Shown piece by piece: positions 13,299 to 63,703 of a stretch of DNA of 64,000 nucleotides. The stretch is taken from assembly GCA_028714315.1 (NCBI GenBank), contig JAQTMN010000003.1, positions 1 through 64,000 of the forward strand. The letters are read 5' to 3'. A program made the translations under genes and the position numbers. Origin of the DNA: Sulfuricella sp. (GTDB lineage Bacteria > Pseudomonadota > Gammaproteobacteria > Burkholderiales > Sulfuricellaceae). Numbering within the stretch: position 1 is the first letter of the stretch; every line of letters starts with the position of its first letter. The notes below the pieces were generated by a model that saw only the letters and a list, made by a program, of their open reading frames with translations, did no database searches and was not told where the DNA came from.

Positions 13299-13692
13299 TG
13301 GTCGCGAAAAGGCACAAAAAGCACAAAAAGGTTTCTCCCTTCTCCCGCAGGCGGGATAACCATCGACTTGGCTGGCGTAGTAGTTTGCCAGCCTAGTCGA
13401 ATGGCTAGTAGTTCCATCAGAAGGGCCGGGGATGAGGGTGTTTGCGTCTTTGCAGGCATTAACCAAGCGCAAAGTCCCTCACCCCAACCCCTCTCCCTGC
13501 ACCCGCACGGAGTGGCAGCAAGCTGCACTCCGACTTTCTATCGACTAAAGTCGATGAAAGATCGTATGTCCCCGCCGGGTTCCCGCTGCTGCGCAGCGAC
13601 CACGGCGAGACGGGCGAGGGGCTATCGCGGGGTGTTCGAGTTTGGTCAGGGCAGGCTTTTTTTTTGTGTTTTTTGTGCCTTTTCGCGGCCAA
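13299..13692. repeat. Composite nested palindromic repeat cluster A
   Basis: Outer arms GTCGCGAAAAGGCACAAAAAGCACAAAAAG / CTTTTTTTTTGTGTTTTTTGTGCCTTTTCGCGGCC enclose host hairpins that are themselves interrupted at 13356..13418 and 13501..13612. Confidence 0.8.
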
Positions 13693-25592: not shown

Positions 25593-25683
25593 ATGTAGCC
25601 CGTATGAAGCGCAGCGGAATACGGGGTCGGTCTTGGCTTCGAGACGCAATCCCGGATTCCGCAAAGCTTCATCCGGGCTACGT
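25593..25683. repeat. Dispersed intergenic repeat P10, forward copy
   Basis: TGTAGCCCGTATGAAGCGCAGCGGAATACGGGG...CATCCGGGCTAC. Confidence 0.7.
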
Positions 25684-25858: not shown

Positions 25859-25937
25859 GCAACGCTTGCAGTGATGCAAACGCCCTCATCCCCGGCCCTT
25901 CTCCCGCCCACGGGAGAAGGGAGTCGGAGCAGTAACT

Positions 25938-32066: not shown

Positions 32067-32417
32067 TTAGCCGCGAAAAGGCACAAAATTCGCAAAAAGA
32101 AAACAGCCGCTCTTTTTTTGTAACGGCTCAGGTTGGTTTTCTTCCTTCTCCCGCATACGACTCCACGCGGGCTTCAGTCCGCAGTGGATCGGAGTCCTTT
32201 AGGGCAGGCGGGATAACCATCGACTTGGCTGGCGTAGTTTGCCAGCCTAGTCGAATGGCTAGTAGTTCCATCAGAAGGGCCGGGGATGAGGGTGTTTGCG
32301 TCACTGCAAACGTTGACTCTGTGCAAAGTCCCTCTCCCCAACCCCTCTCCCGCCTGCGGGCGAGGGGCTTTAAGCCGTTGGCTCTTTTTGTGGCTTTTGT
32401 GCCTTTTTGCGGCCAAG
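32067..32417. repeat. Composite nested palindromic repeat cluster B
   Basis: Outer arms AGCCGCGAAAAGGCACAAAA / TTTTGTGCCTTTTTGCGGC enclose host hairpins interrupted at 32155..32205 and 32213..32272. Confidence 0.85.
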
Positions 32418-33121: not shown

Positions 33122-33182
33122 TTGTAGGAGCGGCCTCCCGGCCGCGATACGCTGTTTCGCGGCCGGGAGGCCGCTCCTACGC
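33122..33182. repeat. Near-perfect hairpin TGTAGGAGCGGCCTCCCGGCCGCGA-loop-TCGCGGCCGGGAGGCCGCTCCTACG
   Basis: 25-bp complementary arms; second copy at 46304..46362. Confidence 0.9.
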
Positions 33183-33190
33183 CAATGTGA

Positions 33191-40345: not shown

Positions 40346-43276
40346 ATGCCCCACGCACCGCTCGATCCGCCGTTCGACCGCCGGAATTTTCTGAAGCTGA
40401 TGGCGGCTTCGCTGGCGCTGGCCGGGGTCGGCGCCTGCTCCCGCCGGGTGCCGGAAGAGATCCTGCCCTACGTGTACGCGCCGCCGCCGTTGACGCCGGC
40501 GCAGCCCCTTTACTTCGCGACCGCGGCGAACTTGTGCGGCTCCGCGATGGGCTTGCTGGTCCAGAGCAACATGGGGCGGCCGACCAAGATCGAAGGCAAT
40601 CCGTCCCATCCGGCGAGCCTGGGCGCCACCGATATTTTCGCGCAGGCGGCAGTGCTGGAAGTGTGGGATCCCGACCGCTCGCAGGCCGTCATGCGCGACG
40701 GCCAGGCCAGCACCTGGGACGCCTTCCTGGCGACGCTGAGCGGTATCGACGGCAAGGGTTCGGGGCTGCGTATCCTCACCGAGGCCGTCACCTCGCCGAC
40801 GCTGATAGAGCAGATGCGGGCGCTGCTGCGCCGCTATCCGGCGGCGCGCTGGCATCAATACCAGCCGATCAACCCGGATCAGGCCTACGTGGGCAGCGTT
40901 CTCGCGTTCGGCGAAGCGCTGGAAACCGCCTGCCGGTTCGACCGCAGCCGCGTGGTGCTGAGCCTGGACGCGGATTTCATCGGCCACGGCGTGCGCCATG
41001 CCCGCGACTTCGCGGCTGCCCGGCGCGGCGTGGACGGCGAGCCCGATCCGGGCCGTCTGTACGTGGTCGAAGCCACGCCGACGCTGACCGGGGCGATGGC
41101 CGATCACCGGCTTGCCGTGCGGCCGTCGGAGGTCGAGGCGGTCGCGCGCGGGATCGCCCGCGCGCTGGGCTTGCCGGTCGCGGAATCCCATGCGGCGGCG
41201 CTTTCCGCGCAATGGATCGCCGCCTGCGCGGACGACCTCCGGCAAAACGGCCGCCGCTCGCTGGTGGTGGCCGGCGCGGCGCAGCCGCCGTTCGTCCATG
41301 CCCTGGCCCACGCCATCAATCACGCGCTCGGCGGCGTCGGCTCCACGGTTTCATACCATGCGCCGCTGTTCCCGGACGCGACGCGGCAGACCGATTCGCT
41401 GCGCGAACTGGCGGCGGAGATGGCGGCGGGCGCGGTCGAAACGCTGGTCATCCTCGGCGGCAACCCGGTCTACAACGCGCCGGCCGATTCCGGCTTCGCC
41501 GAACATCTGGCGAAAGTCGCGGCGTCGGTTCATCTGAGCCTTTACCAGGACGAAACCTCGGCGCGCTGCCGCTGGCACATCCCGGCGGCGCATTTCCTGG
41601 AAAGCTGGTCGGACACGCGCGCTTTCGACGGCACGGTGTCGCTGCAGCAGCCGCTGATGGCGCCGCTGTATGACGGCAAGTCGGCGCACCAGTTGCTGGC
41701 CGCCCTGCTCGGCGAAAATACGGCGAGCGACTACGGGGTGGTGCGGGATTATTGGCGCAAGCGCCATCCCTCCCTCTCCCCTAACCCTCTCCCGCAAGCG
41801 GGCGAGGGGGACGAGGTCTCGCTTCGCGAGGTTCGTGCTAATGCCGATTTCGATGCCTTCTGGAACGGCGCGCTGCGCACCGGTGTGATCGATGGCACGC
41901 GTTTGCCTGGCCGGAAAGCCGTGCTGAAAACCGGTTTCCTGGTGACGCCGCCGCGAACGGGCGGCGAAGGGATCGAACTTGTTTTCGCGCCGGACCCGAC
42001 GATCTGGGACGGGCGCTTTGCCAACAATGCCTGGCTGCAGGAATTGCCTAAGCCGCTGACCAAGCTCACCTGGGACAACGCCGCGCTGATCGGGCCGGTG
42101 CTCGCCGCCCGTCTCGGGCTCGACAATGGGGACGTCGTCGAACTCGGTTATCGCGGCGTCCGCCTTGCTGCGCCGGTCTGGATCATGCCCGGCCATGCCG
42201 ACGGCGCGGCAACGATCACCCTCGGCTACGGCCGCCGCCGCGCCGGGAGCGTCGGCAACGGCGCCGGCTTCAACGCCTACTTGCTGCGCCGGTCGGACGA
42301 GCCGTGGGGCGGGGGCGGGCTGGAAATCCGCAAGACCGGCGGCCGCCATCCGCTGGCAGTGACCCAGCACCATCATGTGATGGAGGGGCGCCGCCCGGTG
42401 CGGGCCATCACGCTCACCCGGTTCCGGCTCGACCCGGCCGCGGCTGTGACCGTCCCCCTCTCCCCTAACCCTCTCCCGCAAGCGGGCGAGGGGGACGAGG
42501 TCTCGCTTCGCGAGGTCCACGCTAATGCCAGCCTGTACTCGGCGGCCAAGTCGGAGGGGCACGCCTGGGCGATGAGCATCGACCTCGGCGCCTGCACCGG
42601 TTGCAGCGCCTGCACCATCGCCTGCCAGGCCGAGAACAACATCCCGGTGGTCGGCAAGACCGAGGTGGCGCGCGGCCGGGAAATGCACTGGATCCGCGTG
42701 GACCGCTATTACCAGGGCGATCCGGACCATCCGCGCACGCACTTCCAGCCGGTGCCGTGCATGCATTGCGAGCATGCGCCGTGCGAGGTCGTGTGCCCGG
42801 TCGAGGCCACGCTGCACGATTCCGACGGGCTGAATTTACAGGTTTACAACCGCTGCGTCGGCACGCGCTTCTGCTCGAACAACTGCCCGTACAAGGTGCG
42901 CCGTTTCAACTTTCTCCAGTATGCCGACACGGAAACCGAAAGCCTCAAGGCGCAGCGCAACCCCGAGGTCACCGTGCGCATGCGCGGCGTGATGGAAAAG
43001 TGTACCTACTGCATCCAGCGCATCGCCGGCGCGCGCATCGAAGCCGAAAAGTCCGGCCGGGGCATCCAGGACGGGGATGTCGTCACCGCCTGCCAGGCGG
43101 CATGCCCGACCGGCGCGATCGTCTTCGGCGATCTCAACGACCCGGACAGCCGCGTCGCGCGGGCCAAGCGCTCGCCGCTGAACTATGCGCTGCTGGCCGA
43201 GTTGAACACCCGGCCGCGCACCACTTACCTGGCCAAGGTGGGCAACCCGAATCCGAAGCTGGGATTTGAATTCTAA
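40346..43276 (+). CDS. actB: Alternative complex III subunit B (molybdopterin-oxidoreductase-like + FeS domains)
   Basis: TAT-like DRRNFLKLMAASLALAGVGAC; CTGCSACTIACQAENN, CMHCEHAPCEVVCP, CSNNCPYKVRRF. Confidence 0.92.
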   Translation: MPHAPLDPPFDRRNFLKLMAASLALAGVGACSRRVPEEILPYVYAPPPLTPAQPLYFATAANLCGSAMGLLVQSNMGRPTKIEGNPSHPASLGATDIFAQAAVLEVWDPDRSQAVMRDGQASTWDAFLATLSGIDGKGSGLRILTEAVTSPTLIEQMRALLRRYPAARWHQYQPINPDQAYVGSVLAFGEALETACRFDRSRVVLSLDADFIGHGVRHARDFAAARRGVDGEPDPGRLYVVEATPTLTGAMADHRLAVRPSEVEAVARGIARALGLPVAESHAAALSAQWIAACADDLRQNGRRSLVVAGAAQPPFVHALAHAINHALGGVGSTVSYHAPLFPDATRQTDSLRELAAEMAAGAVETLVILGGNPVYNAPADSGFAEHLAKVAASVHLSLYQDETSARCRWHIPAAHFLESWSDTRAFDGTVSLQQPLMAPLYDGKSAHQLLAALLGENTASDYGVVRDYWRKRHPSLSPNPLPQAGEGDEVSLREVRANADFDAFWNGALRTGVIDGTRLPGRKAVLKTGFLVTPPRTGGEGIELVFAPDPTIWDGRFANNAWLQELPKPLTKLTWDNAALIGPVLAARLGLDNGDVVELGYRGVRLAAPVWIMPGHADGAATITLGYGRRRAGSVGNGAGFNAYLLRRSDEPWGGGGLEIRKTGGRHPLAVTQHHHVMEGRRPVRAITLTRFRLDPAAAVTVPLSPNPLPQAGEGDEVSLREVHANASLYSAAKSEGHAWAMSIDLGACTGCSACTIACQAENNIPVVGKTEVARGREMHWIRVDRYYQGDPDHPRTHFQPVPCMHCEHAPCEVVCPVEATLHDSDGLNLQVYNRCVGTRFCSNNCPYKVRRFNFLQYADTETESLKAQRNPEVTVRMRGVMEKCTYCIQRIAGARIEAEKSGRGIQDGDVVTACQAACPTGAIVFGDLNDPDSRVARAKRSPLNYALLAELNTRPRTTYLAKVGNPNPKLGFEF
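41772..41845. repeat. In-frame 74-bp palindromic repeat in actB, copy 1
   Basis: CCCTCTCCCCTAACCCTCTCCCGCAAGCGGGCGAGGGGGACGAGGTCTCGCTTCGCGAGGTTCGTGCTAATGCC. Confidence 0.93.
42456..42529. repeat. In-frame 74-bp palindromic repeat in actB, copy 2
   Basis: 71/74 identical to 41772..41845, same reading frame. Confidence 0.93.
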
Positions 43277-43309
43277 ACTTGTAACGACACGGGGGGCGGG
43301 CGGTTTTCT

Positions 43310-43472
43310 CCCTTCTCCCGCATACGACTCCACATGGGCTTCAGCCCATAGTGGATCGGAGTCCTTTAGGGCAGGCGGGAGAAGGGCCGGGGATGAGGGT
43401 GTTTGCATCCCAGAAGCGTCGCCAAAGCGTGCACAGTCCCTCACCCCTGCCCCTCTCCCGCCTGCGGGAGAG
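43310..43472. repeat. Host repeat with 51-bp hairpin insert at 43322..43372
   Basis: CTTCTCCCGC[ATACGACTCCACATGGGCTTCAGCCCATAGTGGATCGGAGTCCTTTAGGGC]AGGCGGGAGAAGGGCC. Confidence 0.88.
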
Positions 43473-43535
43473 GGGTTTATGCCGCATGCATGAATGGCTA
43501 CTCTAGTAGTCAGTCAAGATGAAACAGCGGGGTCG

Positions 43536-43662
43536 CTGTTGTGGGTACGGCTCTTGTGCCCTTTAGGGCGCAGCCGTACATGTCAGGCTGCACCCGCAAG
43601 GAGTGTCCCCGCCGCGAGCGGCAGCAGAGCTGCTCGCACGGGCGAGAAAGCCTGACCCACAG
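43536..43662. repeat. P1 double-hairpin with both loops expanded by extra hairpin elements
   Basis: GTACGGCT[CTTGTGCCCTTTAGGGCGC]AGCCGTAC and GTCAGGCT[GCACCCGCAAGG...GGGCGAGA]AAGCCTGAC. Confidence 0.87.
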
Positions 43663-43728
43663 ATCACCGCGAATCAAACTGAGTGACTACTTAGGTTTTG
43701 AATTTGAAGTTCAAAATTCAAGGATGAC

Positions 43729-45096
43729 ATGGCTCCCACAGAACTCCCCACCTCCGCGCCAGACCCGGTTTTCCCGGGCGCCCACTCCTACGCGTCGATC
43801 TCGGACAAGATCGGCGACATCGTGCTCAAAGGCCCGTCTGGCTGGTGGTGGCACGCCGCGTTCGCGCTGAGTTCGGCGCTGACGCTGCTCTTTTTCGGTT
43901 CCATCGGCTACCTGTTTTACAAGGGCGTCGGCATCTGGGGCCTGAACGTGCCGGTCGTCTGGGCATTCGACATCACCAACTACGTGTGGTGGATCGCCAT
44001 CGCCATGTCGGGGACTTTCATCTCGGCGGCCCTTCACCTCACGCGCCAGGACTGGGGCGCTTCGATCAGCCGGTTCGCGGAGGCGATGACCGTCTTCGCC
44101 CTGGCCATCGCCGGCCTATTCCCGATCATTCACCTTGGCCGCCCCTGGTTTTTCTACTGGCTGGCGCCCTATCCGGACGCGATGGGCCTCTGGCCGCAAT
44201 GGTGCAGCCCGCTGGTATGGGATTTTTTCGCCATTCTGGCCTATCTGCTGCTGTCGCTGATGTTCTGGTACCAGGGCCTGCTGCCCGACCTGGCGACGCT
44301 GCGCGACCGTGCGGCCGGACGCTTCGGGCGCTTTGTCTATGGCGTTCTCGCCCTCGGCTGGCGGGGCGAGGCGCGCCACTGGGAGCGCCGCCGCAGCGCG
44401 CATCTGCTCCTCGCCGGGCTGGCGGTGCCGCTGGTCGTCTCCGTCCACAGCGTGGTGGGGCTGGACTTCGCCGCCGGCAACACGCCGGGCTGGCATTCCA
44501 CCATCTTCCCGCCGTTTTTCGTCGCCGGCGCGATGTTCTCCGGCTTCGCCATGGCGATGACGATCGCCGTGCCGCTGCGCCGCGCTTTCGGCCTGCACGA
44601 TTTCATCACCGGCCGCCACCTCGACCGCCTGGCGCAACTGATCTTGGCGATGGGTCTGATTCTCGCCTACAGTTACTTGATGGAGGTGTTCATGGCCTGG
44701 TACAGCGCCGATCGATACGAGGTGTACACCGCGTTGAACCGGATGCGCGGGCCCTATGCGCCGGTCTACTGGACCCTGATTTTCTGCGTCGTCGCGGTGC
44801 CGCAGGCACTGTGGTTCGCCCGCGTGCGCCGCTCGCCCTGGACGCTGTTTTGCATCGGTATCGTGATCAATATCGGCATGTGGCTGGAGCGGTTCATGCT
44901 GATCGTCACCAGTACGCATCGCGATTTCCTGCCTTCCGCCTGGGGCATGTTCTACCCGACGGTCTGGGACTGGGCCATCCTGGCCGGCTCGCTCGGGTTT
45001 TTCGCTTGGCTGTTCCTGTTGTTCGTCCGGTTCGTGCCGCTCATCCCGATGAGCGAAATGCGCGGGCTCGCGCACCGTCAAGGCGGCGCGCCATGA
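43729..45096 (+). CDS. actC: Alternative complex III subunit C (NrfD-like quinol-binding membrane protein)
   Basis: 454-455 aa polytopic; NrfD/PsrC-type; ATGA overlap with actD. Confidence 0.9.
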   Translation: MAPTELPTSAPDPVFPGAHSYASISDKIGDIVLKGPSGWWWHAAFALSSALTLLFFGSIGYLFYKGVGIWGLNVPVVWAFDITNYVWWIAIAMSGTFISAALHLTRQDWGASISRFAEAMTVFALAIAGLFPIIHLGRPWFFYWLAPYPDAMGLWPQWCSPLVWDFFAILAYLLLSLMFWYQGLLPDLATLRDRAAGRFGRFVYGVLALGWRGEARHWERRRSAHLLLAGLAVPLVVSVHSVVGLDFAAGNTPGWHSTIFPPFFVAGAMFSGFAMAMTIAVPLRRAFGLHDFITGRHLDRLAQLILAMGLILAYSYLMEVFMAWYSADRYEVYTALNRMRGPYAPVYWTLIFCVVAVPQALWFARVRRSPWTLFCIGIVINIGMWLERFMLIVTSTHRDFLPSAWGMFYPTVWDWAILAGSLGFFAWLFLLFVRFVPLIPMSEMRGLAHRQGGAP

Positions 45097-46303: not shown

Positions 46304-46362
46304 TGTAGGAGCGGCCTCCTGGCCGCGATAGTCCGCCTCGCGGCCGGGAGGCCGCTCCTACG
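46304..46362. repeat. Hairpin TGTAGGAGCGGCCTCCTGGCCGCGA...TCGCGGCCGGGAGGCCGCTCCTACG
   Basis: Second copy of 33122..33182. Confidence 0.88.
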
Positions 46363-46380
46363 ACAATCGGGGTTTACAGG

Positions 46381-60665: not shown

Positions 60666-62483
60666 ATGAACCGTTACCCCCTCTGGAAATATCTCGTCAT
60701 CGCCGCGGCGATCCTGTTCGGCCTGATCTACACCCTGCCCAATTTCTTTGGCGAATCGCCCGCAGTACAGGTTTCGCCGCTGCGAGGCATGACCAAGGTG
60801 GATCAGTCGCTGCTGAACCAGGTCGAGGATACGCTGAAGAAAAACAATCTCGCCGACCAGGGCATTTCGTTCGACAGCACCGGGGTGAAGGCGCGCTTTG
60901 CCGACACCGACACCCAGATCAAGGCCAAGGACCTGCTCCAGACCCAGCTGGGCGAAAATTTCGTGGTGGCGCTCAACCTGCTTCCGAGTTCGCCTAAGTG
61001 GTTGTCCAGCTTGGGCGCGCTGCCGATGTATCTCGGCCTGGACTTGCGCGGCGGCGTGCATTTCCTGCTGCAGGTGGACATGAAAGGCGCCATTACCAAG
61101 TCGCTCGAAAGCCACGTGGGCGACATCCGCACCACGCTGCGCGAGAAGAAAATCGCTTATGCCGGGGTCTCGCGCCAGGACCAGGCGGTGGAGGTCAAAT
61201 TCCGCGACGCCGATTCGCGCGCCAAGGCGGAGGAGGAATTGCAGAAGACCTCGCCGGACCTGCTGTTGAAAGACTTGGATGAGGGGGCCGAATTCAAGCT
61301 GCTCGGCACGCTCAAGCTCGAAGCGCAGAAGCGCATCCAGGAATTCGCCCTGCAACAGAACATCACCACCCTCAGGAACCGCATCAACGAGCTCGGCGTG
61401 GCCGAGCCGATCATCCAGCAGCAGGGCATCGACCGGGTCGTGGTGCAGTTGCCCGGCGTGCAGGACACCGCCAAGGCGAAGGATATTCTCGGCCGCACCG
61501 CCACCCTGGAAATCCGCATGGTGGATGAGGAACACGACGTGGTTTCAGCCGTCCAGACCGGCCAGATTCCGTTCGGCGACGAGCTCTACACCGAGCGCAA
61601 GGGCGCGCCCCTGCTGGTGAAGAAAGGCGTGGTGCTGACCGGCGACTACATCAGCGACGCCCAGCCCGGCTTCGAAGGCCAGAGCGGCGAACCGGCCGTG
61701 CACATCACGCTGAACGGCAGCGGCGCGCGCATCTTCAAGCAGGTGACGCGCGAGAACGTGGGCAAGCGCATGGCGATCCTGCTGATCGAAAAAGGCAAGG
61801 GCGAGGTCATCACCGCACCGGTGATCCGCGAAGAAATCGGCGGCGGCCGGGTGCAGATTTCCGGCCGCATGACCACCGCCGAGGCCAGCGACACCGCGCT
61901 GTTGCTGCGCGCCGGCGCCCTCGCCGCGCCGATGGACATCATCGAGGAGCGAACCGTCGGCCCGAGCATGGGCGCGGAGAACATCGCCAAGGGCTTCAAT
62001 TCGAACATCTACGGTTTCATCGCGATTTCGGTGTTCATGATTTTCTACTACCGCTTCTTCGGGCTGATCTCGACCACCTCGCTGGCCGTCAACGTCCTGC
62101 TGCTGGTCGGCCTGCTGTCGCTGCTGCAAGCCACGCTGACCCTGCCCGGCATGGCGGGCATCGCGCTCACGGTGGGCATGGCGATCGACGCCAACGTGCT
62201 GATCAACGAGCGCATCCGCGAGGAAATCCGCAATGGCGCATCGCCTCATGCGGCGATTCATGCCGGTTACGAGCGTGCGTTCGCCACCATTCTCGACTCC
62301 AACGTCACTACCTTCATCGCCGGCGTGGCCCTGTTCTGGCTCGGTTCCGGCCCGGTGCGCGGCTTCGCCGTGGTGCTGTGCCTCGGCATCCTGACTTCGA
62401 TGTTCAGTGCCGTGCTGGTGTCGCGCGGGATCGTTAATTTGACATACGGACGCAAGGCCAGGCTGGAGAAGGTTTCGATCTAA
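60666..62483 (+). CDS. secD: Protein translocase subunit SecD
   Basis: MNRYPLWKYLVIAAAILFGLIYTLPNFFGESPAVQVSP; LGLDLRGGVHFLLQVDM. Confidence 0.96.
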   Translation: MNRYPLWKYLVIAAAILFGLIYTLPNFFGESPAVQVSPLRGMTKVDQSLLNQVEDTLKKNNLADQGISFDSTGVKARFADTDTQIKAKDLLQTQLGENFVVALNLLPSSPKWLSSLGALPMYLGLDLRGGVHFLLQVDMKGAITKSLESHVGDIRTTLREKKIAYAGVSRQDQAVEVKFRDADSRAKAEEELQKTSPDLLLKDLDEGAEFKLLGTLKLEAQKRIQEFALQQNITTLRNRINELGVAEPIIQQQGIDRVVVQLPGVQDTAKAKDILGRTATLEIRMVDEEHDVVSAVQTGQIPFGDELYTERKGAPLLVKKGVVLTGDYISDAQPGFEGQSGEPAVHITLNGSGARIFKQVTRENVGKRMAILLIEKGKGEVITAPVIREEIGGGRVQISGRMTTAEASDTALLLRAGALAAPMDIIEERTVGPSMGAENIAKGFNSNIYGFIAISVFMIFYYRFFGLISTTSLAVNVLLLVGLLSLLQATLTLPGMAGIALTVGMAIDANVLINERIREEIRNGASPHAAIHAGYERAFATILDSNVTTFIAGVALFWLGSGPVRGFAVVLCLGILTSMFSAVLVSRGIVNLTYGRKARLEKVSI

Positions 62484-62661
62484 ACAAGCGCCCTTTCGCG
62501 TTCGCTCCCTCGCCCGCTTGCGGGAGAGGGTTGGGGAGAGGGCAAAACAAGCGCCCTTTCACGTTCGCTCCCTCGCCCGCTTGCGGGATAACCAGCGACT
62601 TGGCGGCTGTGCCGCCTAGTCGAATGGCTAGTAGTTGCATCAGAGGGTGGGGAGAGGGCAA
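62484..62661. repeat. Tandem duplicate of host repeat, second unit interrupted by 54-bp hairpin element (62588..62641)
   Basis: Unit 1 ...CGCTTGCGGG|AGAGGGTTGGGGAGAGGGC; unit 2 ...CGCTTGCGGG[54 bp]AGAGGGTGGGGAGAGGGC. Confidence 0.93.
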
Positions 62662-62761
62662 CGCCTGCAGCGATGCAAGCACCCTCATCCCCGGCCCTTC
62701 TCCCGCCTGCGGGAGAAGGGAGAAAACCAGCCTGAGCTGTTAGAAAAACCAAGGAAACAAC

Positions 62762-63703
62762 ATGATTGAATTTTTTCACATCAAGCGCGATATCCCGTTC
62801 ATGAGCTACGCCAAGGTGACGACGATCATCTCGTTGGTGACCTTCATCGCGGCGGTCGCGGCGTTGGGCCTGAAAGGGCTCAACCTGGGCGTGGACTTCA
62901 CCGGCGGTACGGTGATGGAAGTGAGCTACAGCCAACAGGCGGACGTGCACAAGATTCGCGAAACCCTGGCCGGGGCCGGCATGCACGACGCCGCGGTGCA
63001 GAACTTCGGCACCGCGCGCGATGTCATGATCCGCCTGCCGCTCAAGGCCGAAGTCAGCACCGCCAAGCTGTCCGAACAGGTATTCCAGGCGCTGAAAGCC
63101 GCGGACAGCACCGTCACCCTGAAACGCGTCGAGTTCGTCGGCCCGCAGGTCGGCAAGGAACTGTATGAAAACGGCTCGCTCGCCCTCCTGGTGGTGTGCC
63201 TGGGCATCATGGCCTACCTTGCCATGCGCTTCGAATGGCGCTTCTCGGTGGCCGCGATCATCGCCAACATGCACGACGTGGTGATCATCCTCGGCTTCTT
63301 CGCCTTCTTCCAGTGGGAATTCTCGCTGACTGTGCTGGCTGGCGTACTGGCGGTGCTGGGCTATTCGGTCAACGAATCCGTGGTGGTGTTCGACCGGGTG
63401 CGCGAGAACTTCCGCAAGATGCGCAAGGCCTCGGTGCCGGAAGTAATCGACAATGCCATCACCCGCACCATGTCGCGCACCATCATCACCCACACCATGA
63501 CCGAACTGATGGTCCTGTCGATGCTGTTCTTCGGCGGCGAGGCGCTGTACTACTTCGCCCTGGCGCTGACCATCGGCATCGTGTTCGGCATTTACTCTTC
63601 CGTGCTGGTGGCGAGCCCGATCGTGATGTGGCTGGGCGTGTCGCGCGAGGATTTCCTCAAGCCGGAGAAGAAGGAAGGCGAAGAGGCCGAAGCGCTGCCC
63701 TGA
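62762..63703 (+). CDS. secF: Protein translocase subunit SecF
   Basis: LKGLNLGVDFTGGTVMEVSY; VLGYSVNESVVVFDRVREN. Confidence 0.96.
   Translation: MIEFFHIKRDIPFMSYAKVTTIISLVTFIAAVAALGLKGLNLGVDFTGGTVMEVSYSQQADVHKIRETLAGAGMHDAAVQNFGTARDVMIRLPLKAEVSTAKLSEQVFQALKAADSTVTLKRVEFVGPQVGKELYENGSLALLVVCLGIMAYLAMRFEWRFSVAAIIANMHDVVIILGFFAFFQWEFSLTVLAGVLAVLGYSVNESVVVFDRVRENFRKMRKASVPEVIDNAITRTMSRTIITHTMTELMVLSMLFFGGEALYYFALALTIGIVFGIYSSVLVASPIVMWLGVSREDFLKPEKKEGEEAEALP

Follow-up and report, generated by a model that had tools for sequence, protein, structure and literature searches.

A short hairpin element, probably mobile, that interrupts palindromic repeats before AG in Sulfuricella sp. and related bacteria

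Results

The insertion between the secD-like and secF-like genes

The window is the whole stretch of DNA that was analysed, 64,000 nucleotides of a Sulfuricella sp. contig. Its source genome (G000) is a 2.9-Mb MAG, 85% complete. Near the right end of the window, two protein-coding genes enclose a repetitive intergenic region with the following features.

60666..62483, + strand, secD-like gene, 605 aa, upstream of the locus (name from position and sequence reading)
62484..62545, + strand, host repeat unit 1, empty, with palindrome CCCTCGCCCGCTTGCGGGAGAGGG (from sequence; dispersed repeat in the genus)
62547..62587, + strand, host repeat unit 2, part left of the insertion, ending in GCTTGCGGG (from sequence)
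62588..62641, + strand, element A, 54-nt hairpin insertion (from sequence and fold; 71.1 bits to model R1)
62642..62661, + strand, host repeat unit 2, part right of the insertion, starting with AGAGGG (from sequence)
62695..62720, + strand, related host palindrome CCCTTCTCCCGCCTGCGGGAGAAGGG, empty (from sequence)
62762..63703, + strand, secF-like gene, 313 aa, downstream of the locus (name from position and sequence reading)

The region contains a 62-bp host unit in two tandem copies, the second of which (62547-62661) is split by a 54-bp insert. When 62588-62641 is cut out of unit 2, what is left differs from unit 1 only by a substitution (GCG/ACG) and the lack of one T; the pair of empty and occupied units reported in a preliminary description of this DNA is therefore exact apart from these two differences. 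The central claim of that description, that a small non-coding palindromic element precisely interrupts another palindrome, is borne out as well. The upstream copy had also been taken as the empty site; unit 1 is indeed intact, but it is a tandem paralogue and not an allelic empty site. The boundary of the insert is ambiguous by one base, with A on both sides, and consequently the lack of an obvious target duplication, correctly noted earlier, means 0 or at most 1 bp. The insert folds into a hairpin as originally claimed, with a longer stem than was seen at first (CCA.CGACT.T.GGCGGC / GCCGCC.T.AGTCG.AA.TGG; DNA z-score -4.1); overall, the hairpin is long and mismatched, its 5' foot measuring 4 nt and its 3' tail 14 nt.

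By comparing the orthologous secD-secF regions of relatives, the direction of the change may be read. Genome G007, whose secD is 93% identical, has three host units, the third of which is occupied by the same A as in G000. One empty host unit is present in G001, G010 and G004, a more divergent one in G011, and none in the others. Because the element is shared with G007 and the units of other relatives are empty, the insertion is older than the split of G000 and G007, and a private deletion does not explain the empty state. The earlier worry that the empty form might never be seen in relatives is answered by these single empty units. For the copies of genome G044 and for window 42900-43900, no clean orthologous empty sites were found, because the intergenic DNA around them is replaced or repetitive.

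Copies and distribution of element A

Further copies of A, together with a second hairpin (element B) and their host palindromes, lie elsewhere in the window.

13337..13355, + strand, host palindrome, left part, CCCTTCTCCCGCAGGCGGG (from sequence)
13356..13418, + strand, element A copy, 63 nt, right flank AGAAGGG (from sequence and covariance model)
25896..25921, + strand, host palindrome CCCTTCTCCCGCCCACGGGAGAAGGG, empty (from sequence)
32155..32205, + strand, element B copy, 51-nt hairpin, ATACGACTCC...TTTAGGGC, in the loop of a host palindrome (from sequence)
32213..32272, + strand, element A copy, 60 nt, in the 3' arm of the host palindrome that holds B at 32155 (from sequence and covariance model)
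43322..43372, + strand, element B copy, in a host palindrome without A (from sequence)

The recurrence of the right end of A in the window and in the genome is not due to chance: the window contains the right-end 26-mer three times, against an expectation of 0.00, and the right-end motif has 21 copies in G000, which therefore holds at least 21 copies of A, against 0 for a reversed control pattern. Of 100 relatives, 9 carry the same motif, and public genome contigs contain at least 111 stretches with it, most of them from Gallionella, Sideroxydans, Ferrigenium, Thiobacillus and other Nitrosomonadales MAGs, and also from Sulfuricella-type genomes; a few public matches are labelled gammaproteobacterial or Sulfuricaulis. 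With a covariance model built from 64 copies, 20 of 250 order-sampled genomes (one genome per species) were positive, with at most 23 copies per genome. Overall, the carriers of A comprise at least dozens of iron- and sulphur-oxidising bacteria and relatives of these. It had no match in plasmid, phage and viral collections, and an Rfam scan returned only sub-threshold chance matches. In the loci that were read, its positions are intergenic.

Structure and covariation of the stem

The copies of A are 54-63 nt long, with clusters at 54 and 59-60 nt, and are laid out as ATAACCAGCGACTTG, a variable inner stem-loop and YTAGTCGAATGGCTAGTAGTTNCATC. The outer sequence is near invariant; the inner stem is variable yet still paired. 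In fact, 95% of the cells of the stem are paired, and two-sided changes are found at 10 of the 15 pairs. In total, 109 double-changed cells were counted versus 30 in shuffles, and 0 of 500 shuffles reached the observed value; these shuffles ignore relatedness, which is taken into account by controls with slid partners, where nothing comparable to the real pairing appeared. Read on the top strand, there are 72 G-T wobbles and 12 A-C mismatches, with 32 of the 72 wobbles at a single pair. From this excess of G-T over A-C, selection on the fold seems to act on the top strand, which suggests that the selected fold is that of the strand opposite to the one carrying the CT^ target described below.

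The feet of the stem read ATAA on the top strand (57 of 64 copies in alignment A1) and CTAG on the other strand (60 of 64), and the ends of the element, ATAACC and CATC, are unrelated to each other, so that terminal inverted repeats are lacking. In many 54-nt copies of the same alignment, the inner stem CCCGCTTGCGGG is the core of the common host palindrome, an identity that perhaps arose by gene conversion.

Insertion rule and preference for palindromes

Among 203 distinct insertions of A, 180 are followed on the right by AG and 16 by AA (196 together), and the left flank is unconstrained, mostly G or C. On the complementary strand, the target sequence reads CT in 180/203 and TT in 16/203. 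Host bases are neither gained nor lost, save for the one-base (A) ambiguity. The junction first proposed as GCGGG^AGA is conserved only as N^A(G/A); its GCGGG part mirrors an abundant host palindrome.

A perfect stem of at least 8 bp encloses 26% of the A sites, versus 1.6% of nearby AG sites, and within host stems 43 copies lie in the 3' arm, 10 in the loop and 0 in the 5' arm. The hosts include CTCCCGC-GCGGG palindromes and CCGGCG-type (CGTC-like), TTCGAC-AAGCTC and CACAGAG repeats. Repeated palindromes are favoured, most of all CTCCCGC-GCGGG hairpins, where A enters the 3' arm, and other A copies, whose tail it enters (GGCT^AGTAG). The displayed copies of G000 sit in host palindromes, which answers the initial concern that nearly all copies might lie in unrelated flanks; across species, many flanks are unrelated to the GCGGG host palindrome.

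Nesting of A within A at GGCT^AGTAG was found at five loci (L249, L250, L101, L093 and L097), and at L249 an exact 60-mer is left once the inner copy is taken out. These loci could be read as tandem arrays of units ending in GGCT and followed by ATAA; this reading was dropped, because the tail AGTAGTTCCATC persists after the inner copy, as expected of nested insertions and not of an array. Separately, two A copies (L193 8229-8462, minus strand; L199 1908-2110) are themselves interrupted at CTAG. The longer inserts found there have inverted ends and apparently duplicate CTAG; they are MITE-like, with A as their target.

Clustering of the flanks of the 203 insertions gave 122 groups, of which 103 are singletons, and an identical 54-mer is found unchanged in 10 unrelated flank contexts. 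These observations bear on two explanations that require little or no movement of A itself. In the first, A is an old RNA or DNA structural element that is immobile now and held by selection, for example as a transcript end or stability signal. The strong structural constraint on the stem, the intergenic positions and the secD-secF insertion common to G000 and G007 agree with this, but identical copies in unrelated flanks, nested insertions and precise empty host units in relatives do not, and the explanation is highly improbable. In the second, much of the copy number of A results from the copying of composites (host palindrome plus A) by recombination, gene conversion or a mover of the host repeat. 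Such copying does occur: G147 (L241-L247) and G107 (L216, L233, L252, L253) have identical A copies whose flanks are nearly identical too, the host repeat and A being amplified together. Likewise, 13380-13497 and 32234-32351 of the window are 91% identical beyond A, and in G007 copies of A lie within a REP whose repeats surround a RAYT gene. As the source of much of the copy number, however, composite copying is quite unlikely in view of the many singleton flank clusters, the five A-in-A insertions and the same rule at different host palindromes. We therefore regard A, with high confidence, as a mobile hairpin family.

Element B and other repeats of the window

Element B is at least 51 nt long (ATACGAYTCC...GGAGTCCTTTAGGGC, ending in GGGC) and was found at 22 places in G000 (including L254-L275). 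It lies in the loop of the host palindromes of A, after C and usually after GC, a rule that differs from that of A. Tandem B-B copies occur, and among 100 relatives B is confined to one genus. One type of palindrome is present in all four states in the window: empty (25896-25921 and 62695-62720), with A only (13356), with B only (43322) and with both (32155 and 32213).

Other repeats were also observed. The REP pairs TGTAGGAGCGGCCTCC... at window 33123-33186 and 46304-46367 match REPs around a RAYT gene of G000 (G000:C58; L185), and GTAG-type palindromic repeat families lie at 2595, 27090, 45673 and 60614 (TGTGCGAATGAATTCGCACCTAC) and at 25595 and 57339 (GTAGCCCGTATG...).

Search for a mover

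A RAYT/IS200-like carrier with the ends of A, proposed at the outset, was sought and none was found, nor was any tnpA or tnpB copy with these ends. In about 20 genomes, both A-bearing and A-free, none of the Y1_Tnp (PF01797) loci is flanked by A, and other REPs are found there. Y1 genes are present in every A-bearing genome searched; they are common anyway, and occur also in genomes without detected A. Genome G044, rated 100% complete and carrying 23 A copies, has one detected Y1 gene, set between a different REP. This RAYT gene (L173 1391-2036) is flanked by GTAGGTCGGGTTAGCGCAGCGTAACCCGAC REPs and forms a textbook REPtron unrelated to A. In G007, divergent copies of A lie inside a GTAGGAGCCCGAT...ATCGGGCGA REP that is repeated around the RAYT gene G007:C15:455258, as if A had been captured into the REP of a RAYT:

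L235 2336-2397, 5050-5110, 8732-8793 and 16733-16795, divergent A in the G007 REP

Clustering of the ORFs within 3 kb of A at 141 loci gave no gene family linked to A, the largest clusters being likely chained via ORFs read across A itself. No longer autonomous form with distant A ends was found, except A copies split by other inserts, and the IS110 N-terminal domain is absent from G000, G007, G044 and G107, all rich in A. IS608-type elements are strand-biased. The orientation of A relative to the replication strand showed no bias (39/82, p = 0.74), with local GC skew over 20 kb as a weak proxy for that strand.

Discussion

Based on the results presented above, the best explanation for A is a non-autonomous, REP-like hairpin that depends on a single-strand HUH-type enzyme acting in trans; we give this explanation a probability of roughly 0.5. 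The element would move as a folded single strand, and an HUH/tyrosine (Y1-like) enzyme would cut and rejoin it in trans. On the complementary strand, the site reads CT^ (or TT^) and the stem has a CTAG foot, an arrangement analogous to that of TnpAREP, which picks CT through the last two bases of its GTAG foot (PMC8266576). The exposure of single-stranded or cruciform DNA at palindromes would make them hot spots. HUH enzymes account better than DDE transposases for the hairpin, the dinucleotide target and the absence of target duplications and terminal inverted repeats. On the other hand, neither a Y1 gene nor any other gene is flanked by A, the Y1 gene of G044 has its own REP, strand bias is lacking and the wobbles are asymmetric; the odds that the mover is an HUH enzyme are thus about even.

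The main rival is movement through RNA, in which a hairpin transcript would be reverse-transcribed and joined to DNA before AG, as proposed for the GC clusters of yeast mitochondria. The top-strand fold, which tolerates 72 G-U/G-T wobbles versus 12 A-C, and the absence of replication-strand bias by the crude GC-skew proxy speak for this route, and GC42 of yeast mtDNA is a 42-nt hairpin flanked by AG for which RNA-mediated movement has been discussed (PMC4478555). GC clusters, however, have AG on both sides and A on one, a conserved 5' end and clean junctions are unusual for products of reverse transcription, and no linked reverse transcriptase gene was seen among the ORFs near A copies (within 3 kb at 141 loci). 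We consider this route unlikely. A trans substrate of an IS110/IS1111-type (DEDD, bridge-RNA) or other palindrome-targeting site-specific recombinase is very unlikely: such insertion sequences enter REPs without large duplications (Tobes and Pareja 2006, as cited in PMC2817692), but the domain is missing in the four A-rich genomes named above, and the left and right junctions of A have one base in common, not a two-base core. A broader and tentative proposal, which we rate as doubtful, is that A and B belong to an undescribed class of single-hairpin mobile elements with their own dinucleotide rules (^AG for A, GC^ for B) and a dedicated trans enzyme not yet recognised as a transposase, specialised to repetitive palindromes, including their own copies.

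Compared to known systems, A is close to the REP/REPIN sequences of the GTAG superfamily moved by TnpAREP (RAYT), being very short and intergenic, with a mismatched stem, many copies and no target duplication; its target, if read as CT on the complementary strand, would also match the cleavage of TnpAREP at CT (PMC8266576). Unlike GTAG REPs, it has no GT[AG]G foot (CTAG on one strand, ATAA on the other), and it has a constant 14-nt single-stranded tail and fixed ends; unlike REPtrons, it flanks no RAYT gene, and the RAYTs of A-bearing genomes carry other REPs. CGTC-tagged REPs are likewise short palindromes without an associated transposase gene, characterised by the CGTC tag, an 8-9 bp stem and a 4-5 nt loop (PMC3733652). 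When alignment A1 is set against this published description, A differs by lacking the tag and by its longer mismatched stem and 3' tail; CGTC-type repeats (CGTCATWCCGGCG...) are often entered by A, i.e., they are hosts here.

The ends of IS200/IS605 elements and their derived miniatures share with A a hairpin with unpaired bases, the lack of target duplication and a short specific adjoining site. In contrast to them, A is one hairpin only, not hairpins at both ends around tnpA or a remnant, its target is two bases and not four or five, and the lagging-strand orientation bias is undetected (39/82 by the crude proxy). It differs from DDE-type MITEs in having neither terminal inverted repeats nor target duplication (at most 1 bp shared), and by eye its ends do not resemble the integron attC consensus. 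Yeast mitochondrial GC clusters (GC42, about 42 nt, PMC4478555) are also intergenic mobile hairpins with AG at the insertion site; A has AG on the right only, the left being mostly G or C, and resides in a different type of genome. Cyanobacterial SDRs (Elhai et al. 2008, cited in PMC3116915) are likewise very small non-coding mobile repeats, a likeness drawn from the title and citation of that work.

Sequence strings of A gave no relevant match in paper texts among the matches listed, and no published description of the family, its ends, the ^AG rule or self-nesting was found in open-licence full texts. Palindromic repeats inside palindromes were noted earlier, with REP families inside other palindromes in T. 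roseum (GTAG-23) and A. variabilis (GTAG-15) (PMC3733652); together with the known very small mobile repeats, these cases mean that the kind of element to which A belongs is already known.

The spread of REP-like hairpins has been called poorly understood (PMC8266576). Element A provides a natural data set for it: empty and occupied sites can be told apart clearly, the insertion rule is sharp, the ends are exact, copies nest in one another and the stems covary, so that substrate and product are known to the base. Since small palindromic repeats serve as landing pads for other small elements, the palindrome mosaics of intergenic regions can be read as layered insertions.
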